From positions 1-34,522 of the IMG/VR virus record IMGVR_UViG_3300005833_000009: a stretch of 34,522 nucleotides of DNA, one strand, 5' to 3'. Shown here piece after piece: positions 1,096-34,215 of this stretch. The translations under genes were made by a program, and so were the position numbers. The notes beneath the pieces are model-generated. The model was not told where the DNA came from. It made no database searches and worked only from the letters and a program-made list of their open reading frames with translations. The stretch comes from a virus. Position 1 is the stretch's first letter; each line of letters opens with the position of its first letter.

Positions 1096-2557
1096 GACGT
1101 CGGTCGGTTTCGATGTCATCGACTTCGCCCGGTACCAGCTGGCGTTCCCGCTGGACCCGTGGGAGGAGTGGGCCGTCATTCATGGCGGTGAGCTGTTGCC
1201 GGATGGGCGGCCGCGGTTCCGGGTGGTGCACGTTGTCGTGGCCCGCCAGAACGGGAAGACCACGATCCCGGTCGTCCTGTCGCTGTACTGGCAGGTGATC
1301 GAACAGGTCGCGATGATCCTGGGCACCAGCACGAAGATCGACTATGCGAAGGAGTCGTGGTTTAAGGCGGTGACCCTGGCCGAGAAGGCGCCAGGGTTGG
1401 CTGATCTGGTGCCCAGTCACCTGTCGCTGGGCCCGGACGGGAACCGGGCGCGCCGGCTATGGCTGCGGCAGGCCAACGGCGAGCAGGAGAGCACGCTGTG
1501 CGGGTCCCGGTACAAGATCGCTGCCGCGAACGAGGAGGGTGGCCGGTCGCTGACGGTGCACCGCCTGGTCCTGGACGAGCTGCGCCAGCACCACGACTAC
1601 TCGGCGTGGGACGCCGCGGTGCCCGCGGGGAACGCGGTCGCCGACTTCCAGGCGTGGTGCCTGTCGAACGCCGGCACCAGCCGCAGCGTGGTGTTCAACG
1701 ACGAACGCGAGACGGCCCTGAAGTTCATCGAGACCGGCGAGGGCGATCCGCGGACCGGATGGTTCGAGTGGTCCTCCGAGCCCGGCGCCGACCCGATGTC
1801 GTTGGCTGCGCTGGCCCAGGCGAACCCGAACCTCGGCCGGCGGATCGACGTCGACACCCTGCTCGGTCAGGCCCGCAAGGCGGTCGAGAAGGGCGGGGAG
1901 AAGCTGGCCGGGTTCCGCACCGAGTGCATGTGTATCTCGGTCGGCACGCTCACCCCGGTGATCGACCCGGAGGTGTGGGCGAGCCGGGCGGATCCGGGGT
2001 CCCAGGTCGTCGGCCGGTTGGCCCTGGGGTTCGAGGTCGCCCTGGACCGTTCGGCTGCCTCGATCTCGGTTTCTGGGCGCCGCGAGGACGGCCGGGTGCA
2101 CTGCGAGGTCATCGATCGGCGCGGCGGGATGGGGTGGGTGATCCCGCGCCTGGTCGAGCTGTGCGTACGCTGGGGACCGGTGATGATCGGACTGGATCCG
2201 TCGAGCCCGGCCGGGGCCCTGGTCCCCGATCTCAGTCGGGCGATCGACGATGCCGTGAAGGCCCGTCGTCTGCAGGATCCGGTGGCAACGTTCGAGCTGA
2301 CGAACCGGGACATGGCGACGGCGTTCTCTGGGTTCGTCGCCGATGTCGTCGAGGACCGGTTGCGGCACCGGGGAGAGCAGATACTGGTCGATGAGCTGGG
2401 TACAGCGGTGGCGCGGCCGGTCGGCGACGGCGGGACGGCGTGGGGTCGGCGGCGCAGTGGTGGCGATATCTCGGCGCTGGTCGCCGTGACTGTGGCCCGG
2501 TGGACGTTCCTGCAGCAGGTGCCGGAACCCGACGAGGTCTGGGGATTCAGCGAATGA
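965..2557 (+). CDS. terL: Terminase large subunit
   Basis: The packaging motor ATPase and nuclease, 530 residues, a normal family length. The ATPase domain shows a deviant Walker A, ARQNGKT (residues 93-99), and a Walker B, LVLDE (201-205), followed by the coupling region. The C-terminal half has the RNase H-like nuclease pattern, with Asp residues in LGFEVALDRSAAS and VMIGLDPSSPAG. The N-terminal TPPLRELTPETSVGFDVIDFA is typical of actinophage large terminases. GTG 965 is preceded by AGGGAGG at 952-958 with good spacing, so it is preferred even though it overlaps the small subunit by 131 bp. The stop overlaps the portal start as ATGA. Confidence 0.95.
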   Translation: MVRHPAAAAAAVPAAEASTSFVPAVFGCTQPRLWTPPLRELTPETSVGFDVIDFARYQLAFPLDPWEEWAVIHGGELLPDGRPRFRVVHVVVARQNGKTTIPVVLSLYWQVIEQVAMILGTSTKIDYAKESWFKAVTLAEKAPGLADLVPSHLSLGPDGNRARRLWLRQANGEQESTLCGSRYKIAAANEEGGRSLTVHRLVLDELRQHHDYSAWDAAVPAGNAVADFQAWCLSNAGTSRSVVFNDERETALKFIETGEGDPRTGWFEWSSEPGADPMSLAALAQANPNLGRRIDVDTLLGQARKAVEKGGEKLAGFRTECMCISVGTLTPVIDPEVWASRADPGSQVVGRLALGFEVALDRSAASISVSGRREDGRVHCEVIDRRGGMGWVIPRLVELCVRWGPVMIGLDPSSPAGALVPDLSRAIDDAVKARRLQDPVATFELTNRDMATAFSGFVADVVEDRLRHRGEQILVDELGTAVARPVGDGGTAWGRRRSGGDISALVAVTVARWTFLQQVPEPDEVWGFSE

Positions 2558-4035
2558 AGTGGCCCTGGTCGCGTGACTCGACGCCGCAGCAGAAACCGAC
2601 CGAGCGGCTGAGCCTGGACGACTATCTAGGGATCATCAACTCGTTCTCCTACCTGGGGTTGTCCTACGGCGGCGAGAGCGGGATCCAGCGGACCCTGACC
2701 GGTGACCGCGAGCCCGCACCGCGCGGTTTCCGGTCCGGCGCCGAGATCGGCTACGGATCCAATGCGATCATCTACGCGTGCATGGCGGTCCGTCAGCACG
2801 TGTTCAATCAGCCGAGGTTCGCATGGCAGCAGATGGCCAGCAGCCGGCCGTCGCAGATGTTCGGCACCCCGGCGCTGACCCTGCTAGAGCGGCCCTGGGC
2901 CGGTGGCACTACCCAGGATCTGCTCTCGCGGATGATCCAGGACGCAGACCTTGCGGGGAACTGGTACGGGATCATCGACACGCCGCTGCCACGGATCGGT
3001 GGCGACGGCGGGCAGGAGCTGGTCCGGTTGCGCCCGGACTGGGTCGAGCACGCACTGGAACCGCGGATCATCAAGGGCGGGCAGGTCGGCTGGCGCCGGC
3101 TGGGGATCTTCTACAGCGAGGGCGGTCCGCGCGGGAAGGGCGAGACGACAGGCGTGCCCATCCCGGTCGGTGAGTACGCCCACTTCGCCCCGAACCCGGA
3201 CCCGTTGGCCCAGTGGCGCGGCATGTCCTGGCTGACGCCGGTGGCCCGCGAGGTGCAGTCGGACCTGCAGATGACCCAGCACAAGCAGATGTACTTCGAG
3301 CAGGGCGCGACACCGAACCTGGTCGTGTCCTATCCGGCCGGCACGAAGATGGACGACATCCTCAAGCTGCGGAAGATCATCGCCGAGGACCACGAGGGCA
3401 CCGCGAACGCGTACAAGACCCTGCACCTGGGTGGCGGCGCAGATCCGACGATCATCGGCGCGAACCTCGACCAGATCGACTTCAAGAGCGTGCAGGGGGC
3501 CGGGGAGACGAGGATCGCCGCGGCTGCCGGCACACCGCCGGTGATCGTCGGTCTGAGTGAGGGTCTGGCCGGGTCGAGCCTGAACACCGGCAACTACGGC
3601 GCGGCGCGCCGCCGGATGGCTGATGCCACGATTCATCCGCTGTGGCAGAACGCCGCCGGGTCCCTGGCGCAGCTGTTCCTCGGTTCATCGCAGGCACCGC
3701 CCGGGCTGCGCAACGGTTCGGTGCGGCTGTGGTACGACGCCCGCGACGTCCCGTTCCTACGCGAGGACGAGAAGGACGCCGCCGAGATCGGCATGGCCAG
3801 GGCATCGACGATCCGGACCTACATCGACGCCGGGTTCGACCCGATGTCCGCGGTTCGGGCCGTTACCGCCGAGGACGAATCGCAGCTGGTGCATTCTGGC
3901 CTCTACAGCGTGCAGCTGCAGTCCCCAGGCCAGCAGAACGGCACCGGCCAGCAGAACGGCACCGGCCAGCAGAACGGCCAGAATGGCCAGCAGAACGGCG
4001 GAAGATCCGCCCTGGAAGGAGCATCGACGACATGA
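2554..4035 (+). CDS. Portal protein (HK97-type)
   Basis: A 493-residue portal, forming the dodecameric DNA gate at one capsid vertex. Family features include an N-terminal MKWPWSR, the IIYACMAVRQHVFNQPRFAWQQ stretch split by ordinary portal spacing, the PNLVVSYPAG region, and the conserved GTPPVIVGLSEGLAGSSLNTGNY block (discussed as a family signature, positions about 3526-3600). It starts at ATG 2554, overlapping the terminase stop by 4 bp, and its own stop overlaps the protease ATG in the same way. The last 40 residues are low complexity: GQQNGT repeated, then QNGQQNGG, encoded by an 18-bp tandem repeat. This tail probably varies in length by slippage and is unlikely to be part of the portal core. 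Confidence 0.93.
   Translation: MKWPWSRDSTPQQKPTERLSLDDYLGIINSFSYLGLSYGGESGIQRTLTGDREPAPRGFRSGAEIGYGSNAIIYACMAVRQHVFNQPRFAWQQMASSRPSQMFGTPALTLLERPWAGGTTQDLLSRMIQDADLAGNWYGIIDTPLPRIGGDGGQELVRLRPDWVEHALEPRIIKGGQVGWRRLGIFYSEGGPRGKGETTGVPIPVGEYAHFAPNPDPLAQWRGMSWLTPVAREVQSDLQMTQHKQMYFEQGATPNLVVSYPAGTKMDDILKLRKIIAEDHEGTANAYKTLHLGGGADPTIIGANLDQIDFKSVQGAGETRIAAAAGTPPVIVGLSEGLAGSSLNTGNYGAARRRMADATIHPLWQNAAGSLAQLFLGSSQAPPGLRNGSVRLWYDARDVPFLREDEKDAAEIGMARASTIRTYIDAGFDPMSAVRAVTAEDESQLVHSGLYSVQLQSPGQQNGTGQQNGTGQQNGQNGQQNGGRSALEGASTT
3928..4001 (+). repeat. 18-bp tandem repeat in the portal C-terminus
   Basis: The 18-bp unit GGCCAGCAGAACGGCACC occurs at 3928-3945 and 3946-3963 and continues as degenerate copies to about 4001. 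It encodes Gln/Asn/Gly-rich GQQNGT repeats. The unit is a multiple of three, so the frame survives copy-number change. Confidence 0.9.
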
Positions 4036-8918: not shown

Positions 8919-9995
8919 GTGAGCGGCATCCGGCACCTCCCCGAGTACCTGAGCCCGGCCGCCGACATCCGGGCTGTGTCGGCGCGGGTCACGCTCGGGG
9001 TCGCCACCTCCGGGGCACCCCGGAAGGTGCGGGCGGTCACCGCGGCCGCGGTGGTCGGGGTCGCCACCTCGGGGGCCGAGCGGAAGGTCGCGCCGGCCGG
9101 CGGCAGGAGCACGCTCGGGGTCGCGTCGTGGGCGGAACGCGTGGTGCCGCGGGCTGTGTCGGCGCGGGTCACGCTCGGGGTCGCGGCGGCCGGGACGGCC
9201 CGGAAGGTGCGGGCCCTGGGGACCGCCACCCAGGTCGGGATCCGTACCGCTGGTACGGCCCGCAGGGTCGCCATCACCGCGGGGGCCGTCCCGCTGGGGG
9301 CCGCGCCCGCTGGCACGGCCCGCAAGGTCGCGGTCGCTGCGGGCGCGACCCAGCTGGGTGTCGCATCGTGGGCTGAACGGGTCCTCACCCGAGCGGTCAC
9401 CGGCAGAGTCACGGTCGGGGTCGCCACCTCGGGGACGCCCCGTAAGGTCGCCGTGGGCGCCGGCAGAGTCACGGTCGGGGCAGCCACCTCGGGGACGGCC
9501 CGCAAGGTTGCGGCCGCTGCTGCAGCGGTCTGCCTGGGTGTCGCATCGTGGGCCGAACGGACCCTGGGCCGGGCGGTGTCGGCTCGGGTGACCGCCGGGT
9601 TCGCCGGGTCCGGGGTCGCCGCTGGGCGCCGCCCTGGCGGCGGGCAGGTCACGCTCGGAGTCAGGACTACGGGCACGGCCCGCAAGGTCGGCCCAGCCGG
9701 CGCCAGGACCACGGTGGGCATCGCCCCGGCAGCTGAGGCCCGCAAGCGGGTCGCCCTGGTCGGGGCAGCGTTCATCGGGACTGCGGCCGGCGCGAAGCCA
9801 CCGGGCGCCAAGATCGTGCGGGCGGTCACGCTCGCCCAGATCATCGCGAGGCGGGCCGGGACGGCCGATGTCCCGCAGCGGGACGGCCAGGCTGATGTCC
9901 TTGCCCGCCGCGACGGTGACATCCTGGTGAACGCCGGCCGGGTCACCCTGGCCGATGTGCAGACCAGACGCACCGGATCGGGAGGAGTGACGTGA
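8919..9995 (+). CDS. Repeat protein of fourteen 20-residue units, putative virion protein
   Basis: A 358-residue protein of which residues 18-297 are fourteen consecutive units of exactly 20 residues with no gaps. A typical unit reads RVTVGVATSGTPRKV plus a linker such as AVGAG. Conserved points are a small-hydrophobic-Gly strand (TLGVA, TVGVA), a Gly-containing turn, and a basic ARKV end. Units 3, 7 and 10 share a variant (LGVASWAER), giving a higher-order pattern. Strict periodicity suggests a solenoid or a rigid fibre shaft, but this is inference; the protein is also very Ala/Arg-rich. GTG 8919 lacks a strong ribosome binding site. The stop overlaps the connector gene as GTGA. No family is recognised. 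Confidence 0.7.
   Translation: MSGIRHLPEYLSPAADIRAVSARVTLGVATSGAPRKVRAVTAAAVVGVATSGAERKVAPAGGRSTLGVASWAERVVPRAVSARVTLGVAAAGTARKVRALGTATQVGIRTAGTARRVAITAGAVPLGAAPAGTARKVAVAAGATQLGVASWAERVLTRAVTGRVTVGVATSGTPRKVAVGAGRVTVGAATSGTARKVAAAAAAVCLGVASWAERTLGRAVSARVTAGFAGSGVAAGRRPGGGQVTLGVRTTGTARKVGPAGARTTVGIAPAAEARKRVALVGAAFIGTAAGAKPPGAKIVRAVTLAQIIARRAGTADVPQRDGQADVLARRDGDILVNAGRVTLADVQTRRTGSGGVT
8970..9809 (+). repeat. 60-bp tandem repeat array, 14 in-frame units
   Basis: Fourteen consecutive 60-bp units run from 8970 to 9809. Recurring words such as CACGCTCGGGGTCGC, TCGCATCGTGGGC and GCCCGCAAGGTCG reappear at the same phase. Divergence between units is mixed, with nearly identical units (1 and 4; 8 and 9) beside degenerate ones, implying repeated duplication over time. 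Confidence 0.9.
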
Positions 9996-25978: not shown

Positions 25979-26722
25979 GTGAAACTCCGAACGAAGATCA
26001 TGGCGATGATGGCCGCTGTCGCGGCCGGGGTCGTCCCGTTGGCTCTGACACCCGCCGCGCAGGCGTCGGGCACGTTCAACTTCGGCAAGTCCTACAAGAC
26101 CGGCGGTGTCATCAAGTGGTACACGCCGCAATGTGCGAGAGCGTGGTACCTGGCTGCCGGTGTCGGCGGATCGAATATCTGCACCGAGGCTGGTCTGAAC
26201 AACGCCTACATCACGCTGATCGATAAGACCACGGGCGGCTACCCCGTGCAGGAGGCTGCCAACGTCATCAATCAATACCTGCTCGCCAACAAGAACAAGA
26301 TCCGGCTGAACTACTTCGTATACAACGGAACCAACTTCTGCGGCAACCGTCCCGATCCGTGCATCGAAATCAGGGACCGCGATCTCACCTCGGCGACCGG
26401 TACCACCGACCTGGGACGGACCACCACCACGGGCGGATTCTGTTCGATGGGCACGAGGCCTCTGGTCGAGATCAACAGTCGCCGATTCTTCGAGTATGCG
26501 GCAACCCCGCGCCGCTCGATCATCATGCACGAGCTGTACCACGCGATCGGGCTGCCTCACTACAACGACCCGAACGCGATCATGTACTCGGGTGCGGGGA
26601 CACCGACCAACCCAACCGCTGCGATGCTGCGGGGCAGCCCAAGCGCCGATGACTCGATCACCGTGACCGCTCTGTATGGCCGGTGGGGCACCAGCGCCGG
26701 CTACTGGGCCGACTGCCTGTAG
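25979..26722 (+). CDS. Secreted metzincin-type zinc metalloprotease
   Basis: A 247-residue protein with a clear Sec signal peptide: basic start MKLRTK, hydrophobic core AMMAAVAAGVVPLALTP, and a likely cut after AQA near residue 29. The mature part has the full metzincin zinc motif HELYHAIGLPH (residues 184-194; ligands His184, His188, His194; catalytic Glu185) followed by a Met-turn, AIMYSG (Met202). Five Cys residues (in NIC, FCG, DPC, GFC and DCL) may form disulphides in the mature enzyme. A secreted protease is unusual among phage core genes. GTG 25979 has GGAAGGGA upstream. It is flanked by gaps and looks less GC-rich than its neighbours, suggesting acquisition. Substrate unknown; matrixin/M10-like is the closest match. 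Confidence 0.88.
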   Translation: MKLRTKIMAMMAAVAAGVVPLALTPAAQASGTFNFGKSYKTGGVIKWYTPQCARAWYLAAGVGGSNICTEAGLNNAYITLIDKTTGGYPVQEAANVINQYLLANKNKIRLNYFVYNGTNFCGNRPDPCIEIRDRDLTSATGTTDLGRTTTTGGFCSMGTRPLVEINSRRFFEYAATPRRSIIMHELYHAIGLPHYNDPNAIMYSGAGTPTNPTAAMLRGSPSADDSITVTALYGRWGTSAGYWADCL

Positions 26723-26739
26723 GTACCCAACCCCCAACC

Positions 26740-26753
26740 CCCGGGAGGGATCT
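26740..26753 (+). repeat. 14-bp element repeated after both secreted genes, copy 1
   Basis: CCCGGGAGGGATCT lies 18 bp after the metalloprotease stop. An identical copy lies 12 bp after the collagen-like gene (27497-27510). It may be a processing or termination element or a trace of how the two genes arrived. Confidence 0.6.
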
Positions 26754-26759
26754 CGGGGT

Positions 26760-26810
26760 GGCTGGCCTCTGAACGCGGGGAGCCTGATGGGTCCGAATCC
26801 CATGCCAGCT
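26760..26810 (+). other. tRNA-like or three-way-junction RNA fold between the secreted genes
   Basis: GGCTGGC (26760-26766) pairs with GCCAGCT (26804-26810), seven pairs with one G-U. Inside, ATGGG pairs with CCCAT around a 7-nt loop TCCGAAT, exactly the geometry of a tRNA T-arm next to an acceptor stem. Only about 20 nt replace the D and anticodon arms; CTC and GAG within them could form a short third helix. It is not a functional tRNA. It may be a leader for the downstream gene, a tRNA fragment, or part of an attachment site. Confidence 0.5.
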
Positions 26811-26849
26811 GCGCAAGTACGAAAGACAACCCAAACCGGAAGGAATGCA

Positions 26850-27485
26850 ATGCGTACCAATCGCAACGCGCGCAACAGCATCGTCGCCATCGTGGTGACC
26901 ATGTTGGCCGCGGTCGGCGTGATGCTCGCAGTCACCCAGGCCGACGCTGCCGAACCGCTGAGCCCGACCCTGCGCGGCTACTGCGTGAAGTCCGGTACCG
27001 GCGAGATCCGGTCGCTGGCCCTGACTGTGTCCGGCAAGTGCCAGACCAACTACTGGGGACCGGTCAACCTGGGGGGCACCGGTGCCCAGGGACCCAAGGG
27101 CGACGTCGGCCCCAAGGGCGACCAGGGCGAGCAGGGTCCCAAGGGTGACCCCGGACAGTCCGGGACCGTGTGCCTCGCGGGCCACACTTCCCAGCAGATC
27201 ATCGTCCCGAACGCCACCAAGGCAGCGACCACCGCGGAGGATCTCAAGAAGGACCTGGCCGCGCTGGCGACCGCGAAGGCTGCCACGTTGACCGCGGAGG
27301 CCGCGCTGGCTACCGAGCTGGCCAAGCCCACCCCCGATGCGGCCAAGGTCGTCGAGCTCAAGGCCGCACTCAAGGCCGCCCAGGTGGCCGAGGCCGGCGC
27401 CCAGAAGCTGGTCGACCAGGATCTGCTGGACATCGCCAACCCGGCCACGTACACCATCCGGGCGTGCGTGAAGAACGCCGCGTAA
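26850..27485 (+). CDS. Secreted collagen-like protein
   Basis: A 211-residue protein with a signal peptide (NSIVAIVVTMLAAVGVMLAV; likely cut after ADA, near residue 33). A small Cys-containing domain follows (YCVKSGTGEIRSLALTVSG, residues 44-62, then KCQTNYWGPVN), of a kind often seen before bacterial collagen repeats. Residues 75-107 are about eleven Gly-X-Y triplets (GPKGDVGPKGDQGEQGPK and similar). After a Cys at 108, a mostly helical Ala/Lys-rich segment (DLKKDLAALATAKAATLTAE) is a likely coiled coil. It would be exported and might form trimers on or outside the cell. GGAAGGA precedes ATG 26850. Function unknown; the pairing with a secreted protease is striking. Confidence 0.82.
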   Translation: MRTNRNARNSIVAIVVTMLAAVGVMLAVTQADAAEPLSPTLRGYCVKSGTGEIRSLALTVSGKCQTNYWGPVNLGGTGAQGPKGDVGPKGDQGEQGPKGDPGQSGTVCLAGHTSQQIIVPNATKAATTAEDLKKDLAALATAKAATLTAEAALATELAKPTPDAAKVVELKAALKAAQVAEAGAQKLVDQDLLDIANPATYTIRACVKNAA

Positions 27486-31713: not shown

Positions 31714-31925
31714 GCGGCCGGCGGCGACCACCAGCACCCCAGCGGGAACGCCGCCAGCTGACGCCGGCCGAGCGGCGCTGCCGCGACCACGGGACGGGAC
31801 AGCCACCCCGCGACACCCCGTGCCTGACATGCACCACCTGCGGGGCAGCGTTCCTGGATTACGGGCCAGGCCGGGAAGCACACGCCATGGTGTTCGACCA
31901 CCAACCAACCGGAGGTCCCAGATGA
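31710..31925 (+). CDS. Small basic Cys/His-rich protein
   Basis: A 71-residue protein. A very basic N-terminus (RRRPPAPQRERRQL) precedes C-H-C-C-C residues in RRCRDHG and CLTCTTCGAAF and two His residues near the end. This is likely a zinc-binding fold. ATG 31710 overlaps the previous stop, and its stop overlaps the start of the replication initiator. Function unknown. Confidence 0.65.
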   Translation: MSGRRRPPAPQRERRQLTPAERRCRDHGTGQPPRDTPCLTCTTCGAAFLDYGPGREAHAMVFDHQPTGGPR

Positions 31926-32764
31926 GCAATACCGACCACCCAGACGACATCGAGGGCGGGGAGGTCACCTCCGAATACGGTCCCTTCGCAATGGTCCCGA
32001 TCTGGGTCCTGAATGTGGGCCTGAAAGGCGCCGAGCTGGCCGTCTATGTGGCTCTGCGCAGTTTCGCCGACCGCGGCCGCAGAGCCCATCCCAGGGTCCG
32101 GACTATCGCCCAGCGCGCTGGGGTCAATCAACGAACCGCGGAGCGGGCTATTGATCGGATGCGCGATCTGGGACTCATCACCACCGAGCGCATCTACCGC
32201 GAGGATGGCGGCGTGGCCGGGTGCAATTACAGCCTGCGGGACGCGCCGATCACCGCTGATCCACCCCCTGATCCTGACACCCCCCTCCGGTCCACAGACC
32301 GGACCCCCTCCGGTCCACAGACCGGACCCCCTCCGGTCCACAGACCGGAGCAAGAACAGACCAGAGGAACAGACCAGAGGAACAGAGAGACTCCTCCGGA
32401 GTCTCTTCCGCGCAGCAAGCGAGGCACCCGCCTCCCGGCCGACTGGCAACCGAGCCCAGCGCTACGTGAATGGACCCGCCAGAAGACACCCCACATCGAC
32501 GGCCCGCTAGAAGTCGAGAAGTTCCGCGACTACTGGACCGCCCAACCCGGCGCCCGAGGGGTGAAGACCGACTGGGACGCCACATGGCGGAACTGGGCAA
32601 GGAATGCAATGCGCGACACCCCACAACGCAATGGCCAGAAGAAGACCGCCTCGACCACAAGCGAACGAGTCGCCGCTGGGCTCGCACTCGCCGACAAGTA
32701 CCGCGCACTGGAAAACGCCCAATCCGAACCCGAATCACTATTCGCAATCGAGGCAGCCCAATGA
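31922..32764 (+). CDS. Replication initiator with winged-helix domain and internal iterons
   Basis: A 280-residue protein. Residues 20-105 form a winged helix similar to phage replication initiators (GPFAMVPIWVLNVGLKGAEL, RTIAQRAGVNQRTAERAIDR, LGLITTERIY). A Pro/Arg/Gln-rich linker (about residues 118-160) is encoded by the iterons and other DNA repeats. The C-terminal domain (residues 160-260) has WTRQKTPHIDGPLEVEKFRD and TDWDATWRNWARNAMRD, typical of phage initiators that recruit a helicase loader. The arrangement recalls lambda O, which binds iterons within its own gene. ATG 31922 overlaps the previous stop; the stop overlaps the helicase-loader-like gene. Confidence 0.82.
   Translation: MSNTDHPDDIEGGEVTSEYGPFAMVPIWVLNVGLKGAELAVYVALRSFADRGRRAHPRVRTIAQRAGVNQRTAERAIDRMRDLGLITTERIYREDGGVAGCNYSLRDAPITADPPPDPDTPLRSTDRTPSGPQTGPPPVHRPEQEQTRGTDQRNRETPPESLPRSKRGTRLPADWQPSPALREWTRQKTPHIDGPLEVEKFRDYWTAQPGARGVKTDWDATWRNWARNAMRDTPQRNGQKKTASTTSERVAAGLALADKYRALENAQSEPESLFAIEAAQ
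32281..32349 (+). repeat. Three perfect 23-bp iterons inside the initiator gene; candidate replication origin
   Basis: Three exact 23-bp copies lie head to tail at 32281-32303, 32304-32326 and 32327-32349. Each is CCCCC plus the 18-bp palindrome TCCGGTCCACAGACCGGA (7-bp arms around a 4-bp centre). As 23 is not divisible by three, each copy is read in a different frame (LRSTDRT, SGPQTG, PVHRPE), so the DNA rather than the protein is conserved. Binding sites for the initiator encoded around them are the simplest reading. Confidence 0.85.
32355..32387 (+). repeat. 13-bp tandem repeat next to the iterons
   Basis: AACAGACCAGAGG occurs at 32355-32367 and 32368-32380, with a third partial copy (AACAGAG) to 32387. 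It also contains the ACAGACC core of the iterons, but without the palindrome. The 13-bp period changes the reading frame, as for the iterons. Confidence 0.75.
32386..32406 (+). repeat. 9-bp perfect inverted repeat downstream of the iterons
   Basis: AGAGACTCC (32386-32394) pairs with GGAGTCTCT (32398-32406) around the 3-nt centre TCC. It lies right after the tandem repeats inside the initiator gene and may help origin unwinding or be a protein site. Being intragenic, a terminator role is unlikely. Confidence 0.65.
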
Positions 32765-33342
32765 CCCCCACCGAGACCGCCCTGCTGCTGACGCTGATCG
32801 CTTCCTACGACCGGCGCACCCTGGGCGATGAGGATGTGCTCGCCTGGCACGCCGCCCTGGCCCAGGTCGCCTACGCCGATGCCCGGACCGTCGTCACCGA
32901 CCACTACCGCACCGAGACCGCCTGGATCATGCCGGCGCACATCACCGCAGGCGTCCGACGGATCCGCAGCGAACGCCTCACCGGGCTGGACGCCCTGCTG
33001 CCCGACGCCGATCCCGACGACGTCCAGGCCTGGCTGGACGCCTACCGGGCCCAGATCGCCGACGTCGCCGACGGCCGGACGTTGTCATCGATCCGTGCCA
33101 TCGATGCCGGGGACGTCGCTGGCGTCGCGATCGTCGTGGCCGCACTGGCCGAGGCCAAGGAGATCACCGCCCAGGCCGCGGCCCGCGAGCACGACGCCGA
33201 GCAGGCCGCGGAGGCCGAGCGGGCCCGGCAGCTGGCCGCAGTCGCTGCCTTCGTCGATGCCGAGCGGGCCGCCGCGGCTGAGCAGAAGTCCGGCGCGGCG
33301 GCTGCCTTCCGGGCCAGGATCATCGAGCAGGCGACACCATGA
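32761..33342 (+). CDS. Helicase-loader-like replication protein
   Basis: A 193-residue protein. Residues 1-70 (TPTETALLLTLIASYDRRTLG, VLAWHAALAQVAYADARTVV, WIMPAHITAGVRRIR) match the N-terminal domain found in phage replicative-helicase loader or inhibitor proteins such as the G39P type. The C-terminal 60 residues form an Ala/Glu-rich coiled coil (AAREHDAEQAAEAERARQL). It is coupled by ATGA to the initiator, the same order as lambda O and P. It would deliver the host DnaB helicase to the iteron origin. Similarity is recognised by pattern only. Confidence 0.72.
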   Translation: MTPTETALLLTLIASYDRRTLGDEDVLAWHAALAQVAYADARTVVTDHYRTETAWIMPAHITAGVRRIRSERLTGLDALLPDADPDDVQAWLDAYRAQIADVADGRTLSSIRAIDAGDVAGVAIVVAALAEAKEITAQAAAREHDAEQAAEAERARQLAAVAAFVDAERAAAAEQKSGAAAAFRARIIEQATP

Positions 33343-33790: not shown

Positions 33791-34215
33791 CCACCACCGT
33801 CAGCACCACCACCAGCCACCCCCAGCCCACCCCACCGCGGCGCCGCGCCATCGTGGTCGCCGCGGCCCTGGCCTGCCTGCTGGGGTTCCTGTTCGGCTAC
33901 GCCACCGGACCCAGCCGGCTGGCCACACCCCAGATCGAGACCACCCAGGCCGAGGCCGCGCCCGCACCAGCGCCGGCCGCGCCCATCGCCGACACCTTCG
34001 GTGATGGGACCTATGTCGTCGGGGAGGACATCGCCCCCGGCCGCTACCGGGCCCCAGGCAGCGATCTCGGCTGCTACTGGGCGCGGCTGTCCAGCCTCGA
34101 CGGCGCCCACTCGATCATCGCCAACGACGCCGGGTCCGGGCCCAGGGTCGTCACCATCCTCGCCACCGATGCGGCCTTCGAGACCACCGGATGCGGGACA
34201 TGGGTCAAGTCCTGA
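33787..34215 (+). CDS. Membrane-anchored or secreted protein
   Basis: A 142-residue protein. A Thr/Pro-rich start and basic PPRRR precede a membrane segment (AIVVAAALACLLGFLFGYAT, residues 21-40). A Pro/Ala-rich linker follows, then an extracellular-type domain with GDGTYVVGEDIAPGRYRAPG and GCYWARLSS, ending TGCGTWVKS; two Cys residues may form a disulphide. This domain is found in secreted actinobacterial proteins, so the gene could have been acquired from a host. GAGAGGAA precedes ATG 33787. It might alter the host surface, but no role is known. Confidence 0.75.
   Translation: MTTTVSTTTSHPQPTPPRRRAIVVAAALACLLGFLFGYATGPSRLATPQIETTQAEAAPAPAPAAPIADTFGDGTYVVGEDIAPGRYRAPGSDLGCYWARLSSLDGAHSIIANDAGSGPRVVTILATDAAFETTGCGTWVKS

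Follow-up and report, generated by a model that had tools for sequence, protein, structure and literature searches.

Results and discussion

The locus and the initiator gene

The window, that is the whole stretch of DNA analysed in this work, is an IMG/VR virus record in its entirety (34,522 bp). It has genes for terminase, portal, head and tape-measure proteins and an endolysin, along with exonuclease VIII-like, RecT and RuvC/RusA-like genes; the phage stems from a GC-rich host. Its replication initiator gene, assigned with the use of Pfam, PHROG and AlphaFold2, occupies positions 31922–32764 on the plus strand and encodes 280 amino acids. According to the AlphaFold2 model the product is built of a winged helix (residues ~24–105), a disordered linker (109–163) and a DnaT-like helical domain (~168–233), with pLDDT of ~90 in the winged-helix and helical domains and below 50 across residues 109–163. 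Pfam family HTH_36 matched residues 33–86 (E 1e-10), and the match to Pfam DnaT was weak (E 0.018), its 15.2 bits lying below the cut-off of 25 bits. The best of the matches to PHROG primosomal and replication-initiation families reached E 2e-19, and the protein combines an HTH N-domain with a C-domain of the phrog_3992/phrog_1408 type. Judged by these matches and by the predicted fold, it is a phage primosomal/replication initiation protein with a DnaT-like C-domain.

The gene directly downstream (32761–33342, plus strand, 193 aa) is a candidate helicase loader, since its residues 1–71 are 34% identical to gp45 of Microbacterium phage Lesiram, annotated as 'helicase loader' (pairwise E 2e-13); its other matches were PHROG families of unknown function. 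Among the recombination genes, a collagen-like repeat protein is encoded at 26676–27485.

No relative was found by sequence search of solved structures, a DNA-level search of annotated phages with the initiator gene gave no match, and bait searches for close relatives, with the N-domain alone and also with RecT, returned none. A close sequenced relative of the phage was thus not found in the searches made.

Repeats in the linker codons

Module A (32281–32349, plus strand), detected by repeat search, consists of three exact copies of the 23-bp iteron CCCCCTCCGGTCCACAGACCGGA, located at 32281–32303, 32304–32326 and 32327–32349, just as the preliminary description of this DNA had reported. Each copy is composed of CCCCC followed by TCCGGTC-CACA-GACCGGA; of the 18-bp palindrome formerly ascribed to it the 7-bp arms stand, but the 4-bp spacer CACA is not symmetric itself. 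Even with up to 3 mismatches allowed, the window holds no further occurrence of the 18-mer (0.11 expected), and its exact form had no match in the IMG/VR contigs searched. A looser double-palindrome pattern was met at two unrelated loci, of which one is a non-initiator context and the other a GC-rich repeat.

Module B (32350–32386, plus strand), delimited by a scan of stability and purine bias, is free of T, 78% purine and 51% GC, against near 69% GC for the genome in the window. It holds the 13-mer tandem GAACAGACCAGAG in 2.5 copies; a tandem had been described at 32355–32387, and it is indeed present, one base away, at 32354–32386. The instability of the 40-mer at position 32352 is equalled by 0.12% of window positions only, and the purine bias of the module is reached by 0.06% of the window. 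An unstable, strand-asymmetric region hence adjoins the iterons, yet with a base composition that is not AT-rich, and we propose it as the strand-opening element.

Module C (32386–32406, plus strand), identified by inverted-repeat score, is the inverted repeat AGAGACTCC-TCC-GGAGTCTCT with a 9-bp stem and a 3-nt loop, lying exactly where the 9-bp inverted repeat had been placed before. As such a hairpin would form in RNA too, and the DNA and RNA levels are not separable here, the hairpin and the repeats might act in mRNA, through pausing, processing or translation control; this would leave the iterons unexplained, the hairpin has no T-run and no terminator-like character was found in it, and we hold such a role to be extremely improbable.

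All the repeats (32281–32406) fall inside the single gene at 31922–32764, as claimed earlier, where they correspond to residues 120–162 and coincide with the predicted disordered linker. That the copies encode different residues is also borne out: successive iterons are read in phases 2, 1 and 0 (TPLRSTDRT, TPSGPQTGP and PPPVHRPEQ), and the 13-mer copies in phases 0, 1 and 2. The repeat score was 46, whereas none of 50 codon shuffles keeping the protein scored above 12. Elsewhere in the window the periods of tandem arrays are mostly divisible by three, the main exception being the imperfect 10-bp tandem CAGCCCACCCC at 33801–33833, out of codon phase and downstream of the replication genes. At 8970–9331 (77% GC), imperfect tandem repeats of 60 bp and 30 bp probably encode a repetitive protein because their periods are divisible by three; an 18/39-bp tandem repeat containing GGCCAGCAGAACGGC is located at 3928–3999, close to where the portal gene region ends.

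Palindromic sites for a winged helix could also be operators, through which the protein represses or autoregulates transcription of the early operon instead of starting replication. In a structure search with the N-domain model the nearest folds were transcription regulators, all at E > 0.001 and of a generic winged-helix kind, which speaks for such a function; the array lies mid-gene, though, with no promoter-like site found nearby (sigma-70 consensus only), and an operator explains neither modules B and C nor their lambda-like order, described below. We consider it very unlikely.

Comparison with known origins

Lambda gene O served as a positive control and was put through the same code as the window. 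In the lambda record, gene O bears four annotated iterons at spacings of 20, 24 and 23; the code returned these iterons, followed by 43 nt of purine-rich sequence and a 28-nt inverted repeat. The single repeat and hairpin scores of lambda were not clear of codon shuffles because its iterons are imperfect, and the comparison is therefore a control of layout, confirmed by the annotation of the lambda record. In the opening (AT-rich) region of lambda, one strand consists almost wholly of purines (PMC5043065).

The window shares the order of the lambda origin: palindromic iterons, a purine-biased unstable stretch and an inverted repeat, all in the middle of an initiator gene, as in lambda-type in-gene origins. 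The spacing is also similar, with an iteron spacing of 23 and then 36 nt to the hairpin in the window versus an iteron spacing of 20–24 and then 43 nt in lambda, and the 9-bp stem beyond the opening region has its counterpart in lambda's own inverted repeat at the same relative place. The two differ in that the window has three identical iterons and lambda four similar ones, and in the opening stretch, which is a 13-mer tandem in the window but an AT-rich tract in lambda. The initiator gave E 0.41 in BLASTP against lambda O and no match to PF04492 (Phage_rep_O), though lambda O does match PF04492; the only family common to both was the weak, O-like phrog_391 (E 1e-7). By these comparisons the element appears lambda-ori-like in layout, with an initiator not detectably of the lambda O family.

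That phages can have origins inside genes has long been known, from lambda and from SPP1. The SPP1 initiator, encoded by gene 38, binds direct repeats lying within that gene, at oriL, beside an unwinding element (PMC6316719). The SPP1 unwinding element is AT-rich, unlike the one proposed in the window, and the likeness is one of published description.

Neither oriV of plasmid RK2 nor oriC of E. coli is known to lie inside the initiator gene. Both are AT-rich, and their initiator proteins are unrelated to that of the window. They share with it tandem 13-mers that adjoin the initiator sites and lie within the opening region, a proposed one in the window, and in RK2 the TrfA protein binds one strand of these 13-mers (PMC4081077).

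Proposed function of the element

The observations comprise the DNA elements, the order in which they follow one another, their independence of the reading frame, the local instability and the recurrence in relatives (see below), and the domain layout comes from the predicted structure. The element is very probably the replication origin of the phage, lying in the part of the initiator gene that encodes the linker, with binding by the winged helix, melting and helicase loading as proposed steps. An in-gene origin bound by the upstream winged helix was put forward already in the preliminary description and is supported by the initiator-family match, HTH_36, the lambda-like layout and the combined instability and purine skew beside the iterons. 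A GC skew check across the window gave no useful signal and no turning point at the element.

We suggest that dimers of the winged helix bind the three palindromic iterons and that the resulting protein–DNA array strains the adjacent T-free, purine-biased stretch of low stability, which would open as in lambda. The DnaT-like C-domain may then hold the single-stranded DNA and, together with the loader-like product of the downstream gene, bring in the replicative helicase, and the hairpin would close the element on its far side. The element offers a directly testable candidate origin for a phage for which no close sequenced relative was found.

Survey of related initiator genes

Relatives of the initiator gene were gathered from IMG/VR, bacterial genomes, and annotated phages and plasmids. 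In 63 of 129 distinct genes, repeats whose period is not a multiple of three exceeded 20 codon shuffles. After thinning to 64 genes at <70% identity, with representatives that are not fully independent, 33 held out-of-codon-phase repeats beyond all 20 shuffles (about 3 expected), in 32 of the 33 within the same linker, no more than 260 nt upstream of the C-domain; the shuffle test gave no significant repeat in about half of the relatives. Among control windows, which were drawn from other genes and are ordinary gene segments rather than disordered linkers, 4 of 107 exceeded the shuffles. Tandem scores of at least 12, a statistic defined, like that for hairpins, after the sequences were inspected, were reached by 32/63 relatives and 0/107 controls; repeats at iteron spacing (17–30) were found in 33/63 versus 0/107, a count that includes multiples of short periods.

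On the coding strand the short repeats are T-poor (38/43) and A-rich (34/43), and 33/43 are less stable than their own gene. Directly 3' of them, hairpins scoring at least 8 occur in 11 of 43 cases versus 0.72 expected from codon shuffles; none was found in a control stretch of the C-domain. The repeat units are unrelated across relatives (GGAACAG, GGAACAAG, CCCGA, AACCANA, ACAGAG); some have periods divisible by three, and some module B repeats, such as CCCGA, are GC-rich. Short tandem repeats in the initiator linker, often followed by hairpins, thus recur family-wide with unrelated letters. Repeats persist while linker residues change, which is the outcome that the preliminary description had looked for in relatives. 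Its view that the repeats look specific to this phage type appears to hold for the letters of the 23-mer, whose 18-mer occurs in no IMG/VR contig searched, but not to the short tandem repeats. No description of this layout in the DnaT-type initiator family was found in the literature searched, in which coverage of most subscription journals was missing.

The 3' hairpins of several relatives (L091, L126, L134, L136, L138, L152 and Jace, L172) often have four-base loops TRAM, namely TGAC, TAAA, TAAC and TGAA, closed by C-G. In the region 1392–3952 of Corynebacterium glutamicum plasmid pCGR1 (L177), a gene of the family has an exact 23-bp double repeat within its linker, and an annotated replicative DNA helicase lies two genes downstream of it.

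These data bear on two further explanations. The repeats might be functionless low-complexity DNA generated by slippage in a tolerant linker, given that this linker is disordered, that linkers generally accept repeats and that our controls were of another kind of sequence. Slippage, however, accounts neither for arms that are palindromic nor for the succession of iterons, short repeats and hairpin, and the excess of 3' hairpins over codon-shuffle expectation also argues against it, so that we find this explanation highly improbable. Alternatively, the array could be a partition or incompatibility site, in the manner of the direct-repeat parS of mycobacteriophage RedRock, where an 8-bp motif is present eight times in direct orientation (PMC7157519), and 8-bp tandem repeats do occur in some relatives. 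As no partition gene was matched among the window ORFs scanned, the gene carrying the array is that of the initiator and the iterons are palindromic, we give this possibility hardly any credence.

Domain exchange in mycobacteriophages and a possible wider class

The initiators of mycobacteriophages Brujita, Babsiella, Fishburne and Sbash resemble that of the window in a homologous C-domain (about 41–52% identity) and in linker layout, but differ from it in N-domains, iterons and short repeats. Across 14 mycobacteriophage initiators the C-domains are 76–100% identical, and the N-domains fall into three types, 13–22% identical between types, each with iterons and short repeats peculiar to it. 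In Fishburne, QueenHazel and Sbash the C-domains are 97–100% identical and the N-domains 14–20%, and the iterons are replaced alongside the N-domain; the short repeats of Sbash differ again, and the DNA that it has in common with Fishburne starts only just past the short repeats. Related N-domains (48–53% identical) in turn keep TCGCG sites at a spacing of 10–11 bp and differ in linker residues, as exemplified by Brujita and Fishburne, which belong to one type with N-domains 48% identical. On sequence grounds these exchanges fit a reading of the iterons by the N-domain, although co-inheritance of the two also follows from linkage alone, as they are neighbours.

We would give about an even chance to a broader proposal, that in-gene origins of DnaT-type initiators form a widespread class. 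What marks their opening element would be simple tandem repeats rather than a high AT content; these repeats, often out of codon phase, would be T-depleted on the coding strand and followed by a hairpin, and the N-domain, iterons and opening repeats would be swapped as one cassette before a constant helicase-loading domain. The wider interest lies in this recurrent layout, in opening repeats that need not be AT-rich and in the modular exchange. As a general rule, origins might be located in many phages by seeking out-of-codon-phase repeats in the initiator linker; GC-rich opening elements bear on what, besides AT content, lets an origin melt, and the mycobacteriophage exchanges serve as natural experiments on which part of the initiator reads which DNA.

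A narrower idea was that the C-domain reads module B in a sequence-specific manner, the 7–8 nt repeat period corresponding to the about 8.7 nt per DnaT protomer, DnaT covering 26 nt per trimer (PMC4129139). It was weakened by Fishburne and QueenHazel, which have identical C-domains and different short repeats, GGAACAGG and ACCATTACCAAC, respectively; this argues against a strict reading of the short repeats by the C-domain.

In the Brujita gene (L173) clusters of TCGCG at 10–11 bp spacing are located both at offsets 158–200, within the N-domain codons, and at 371–408, in the linker.
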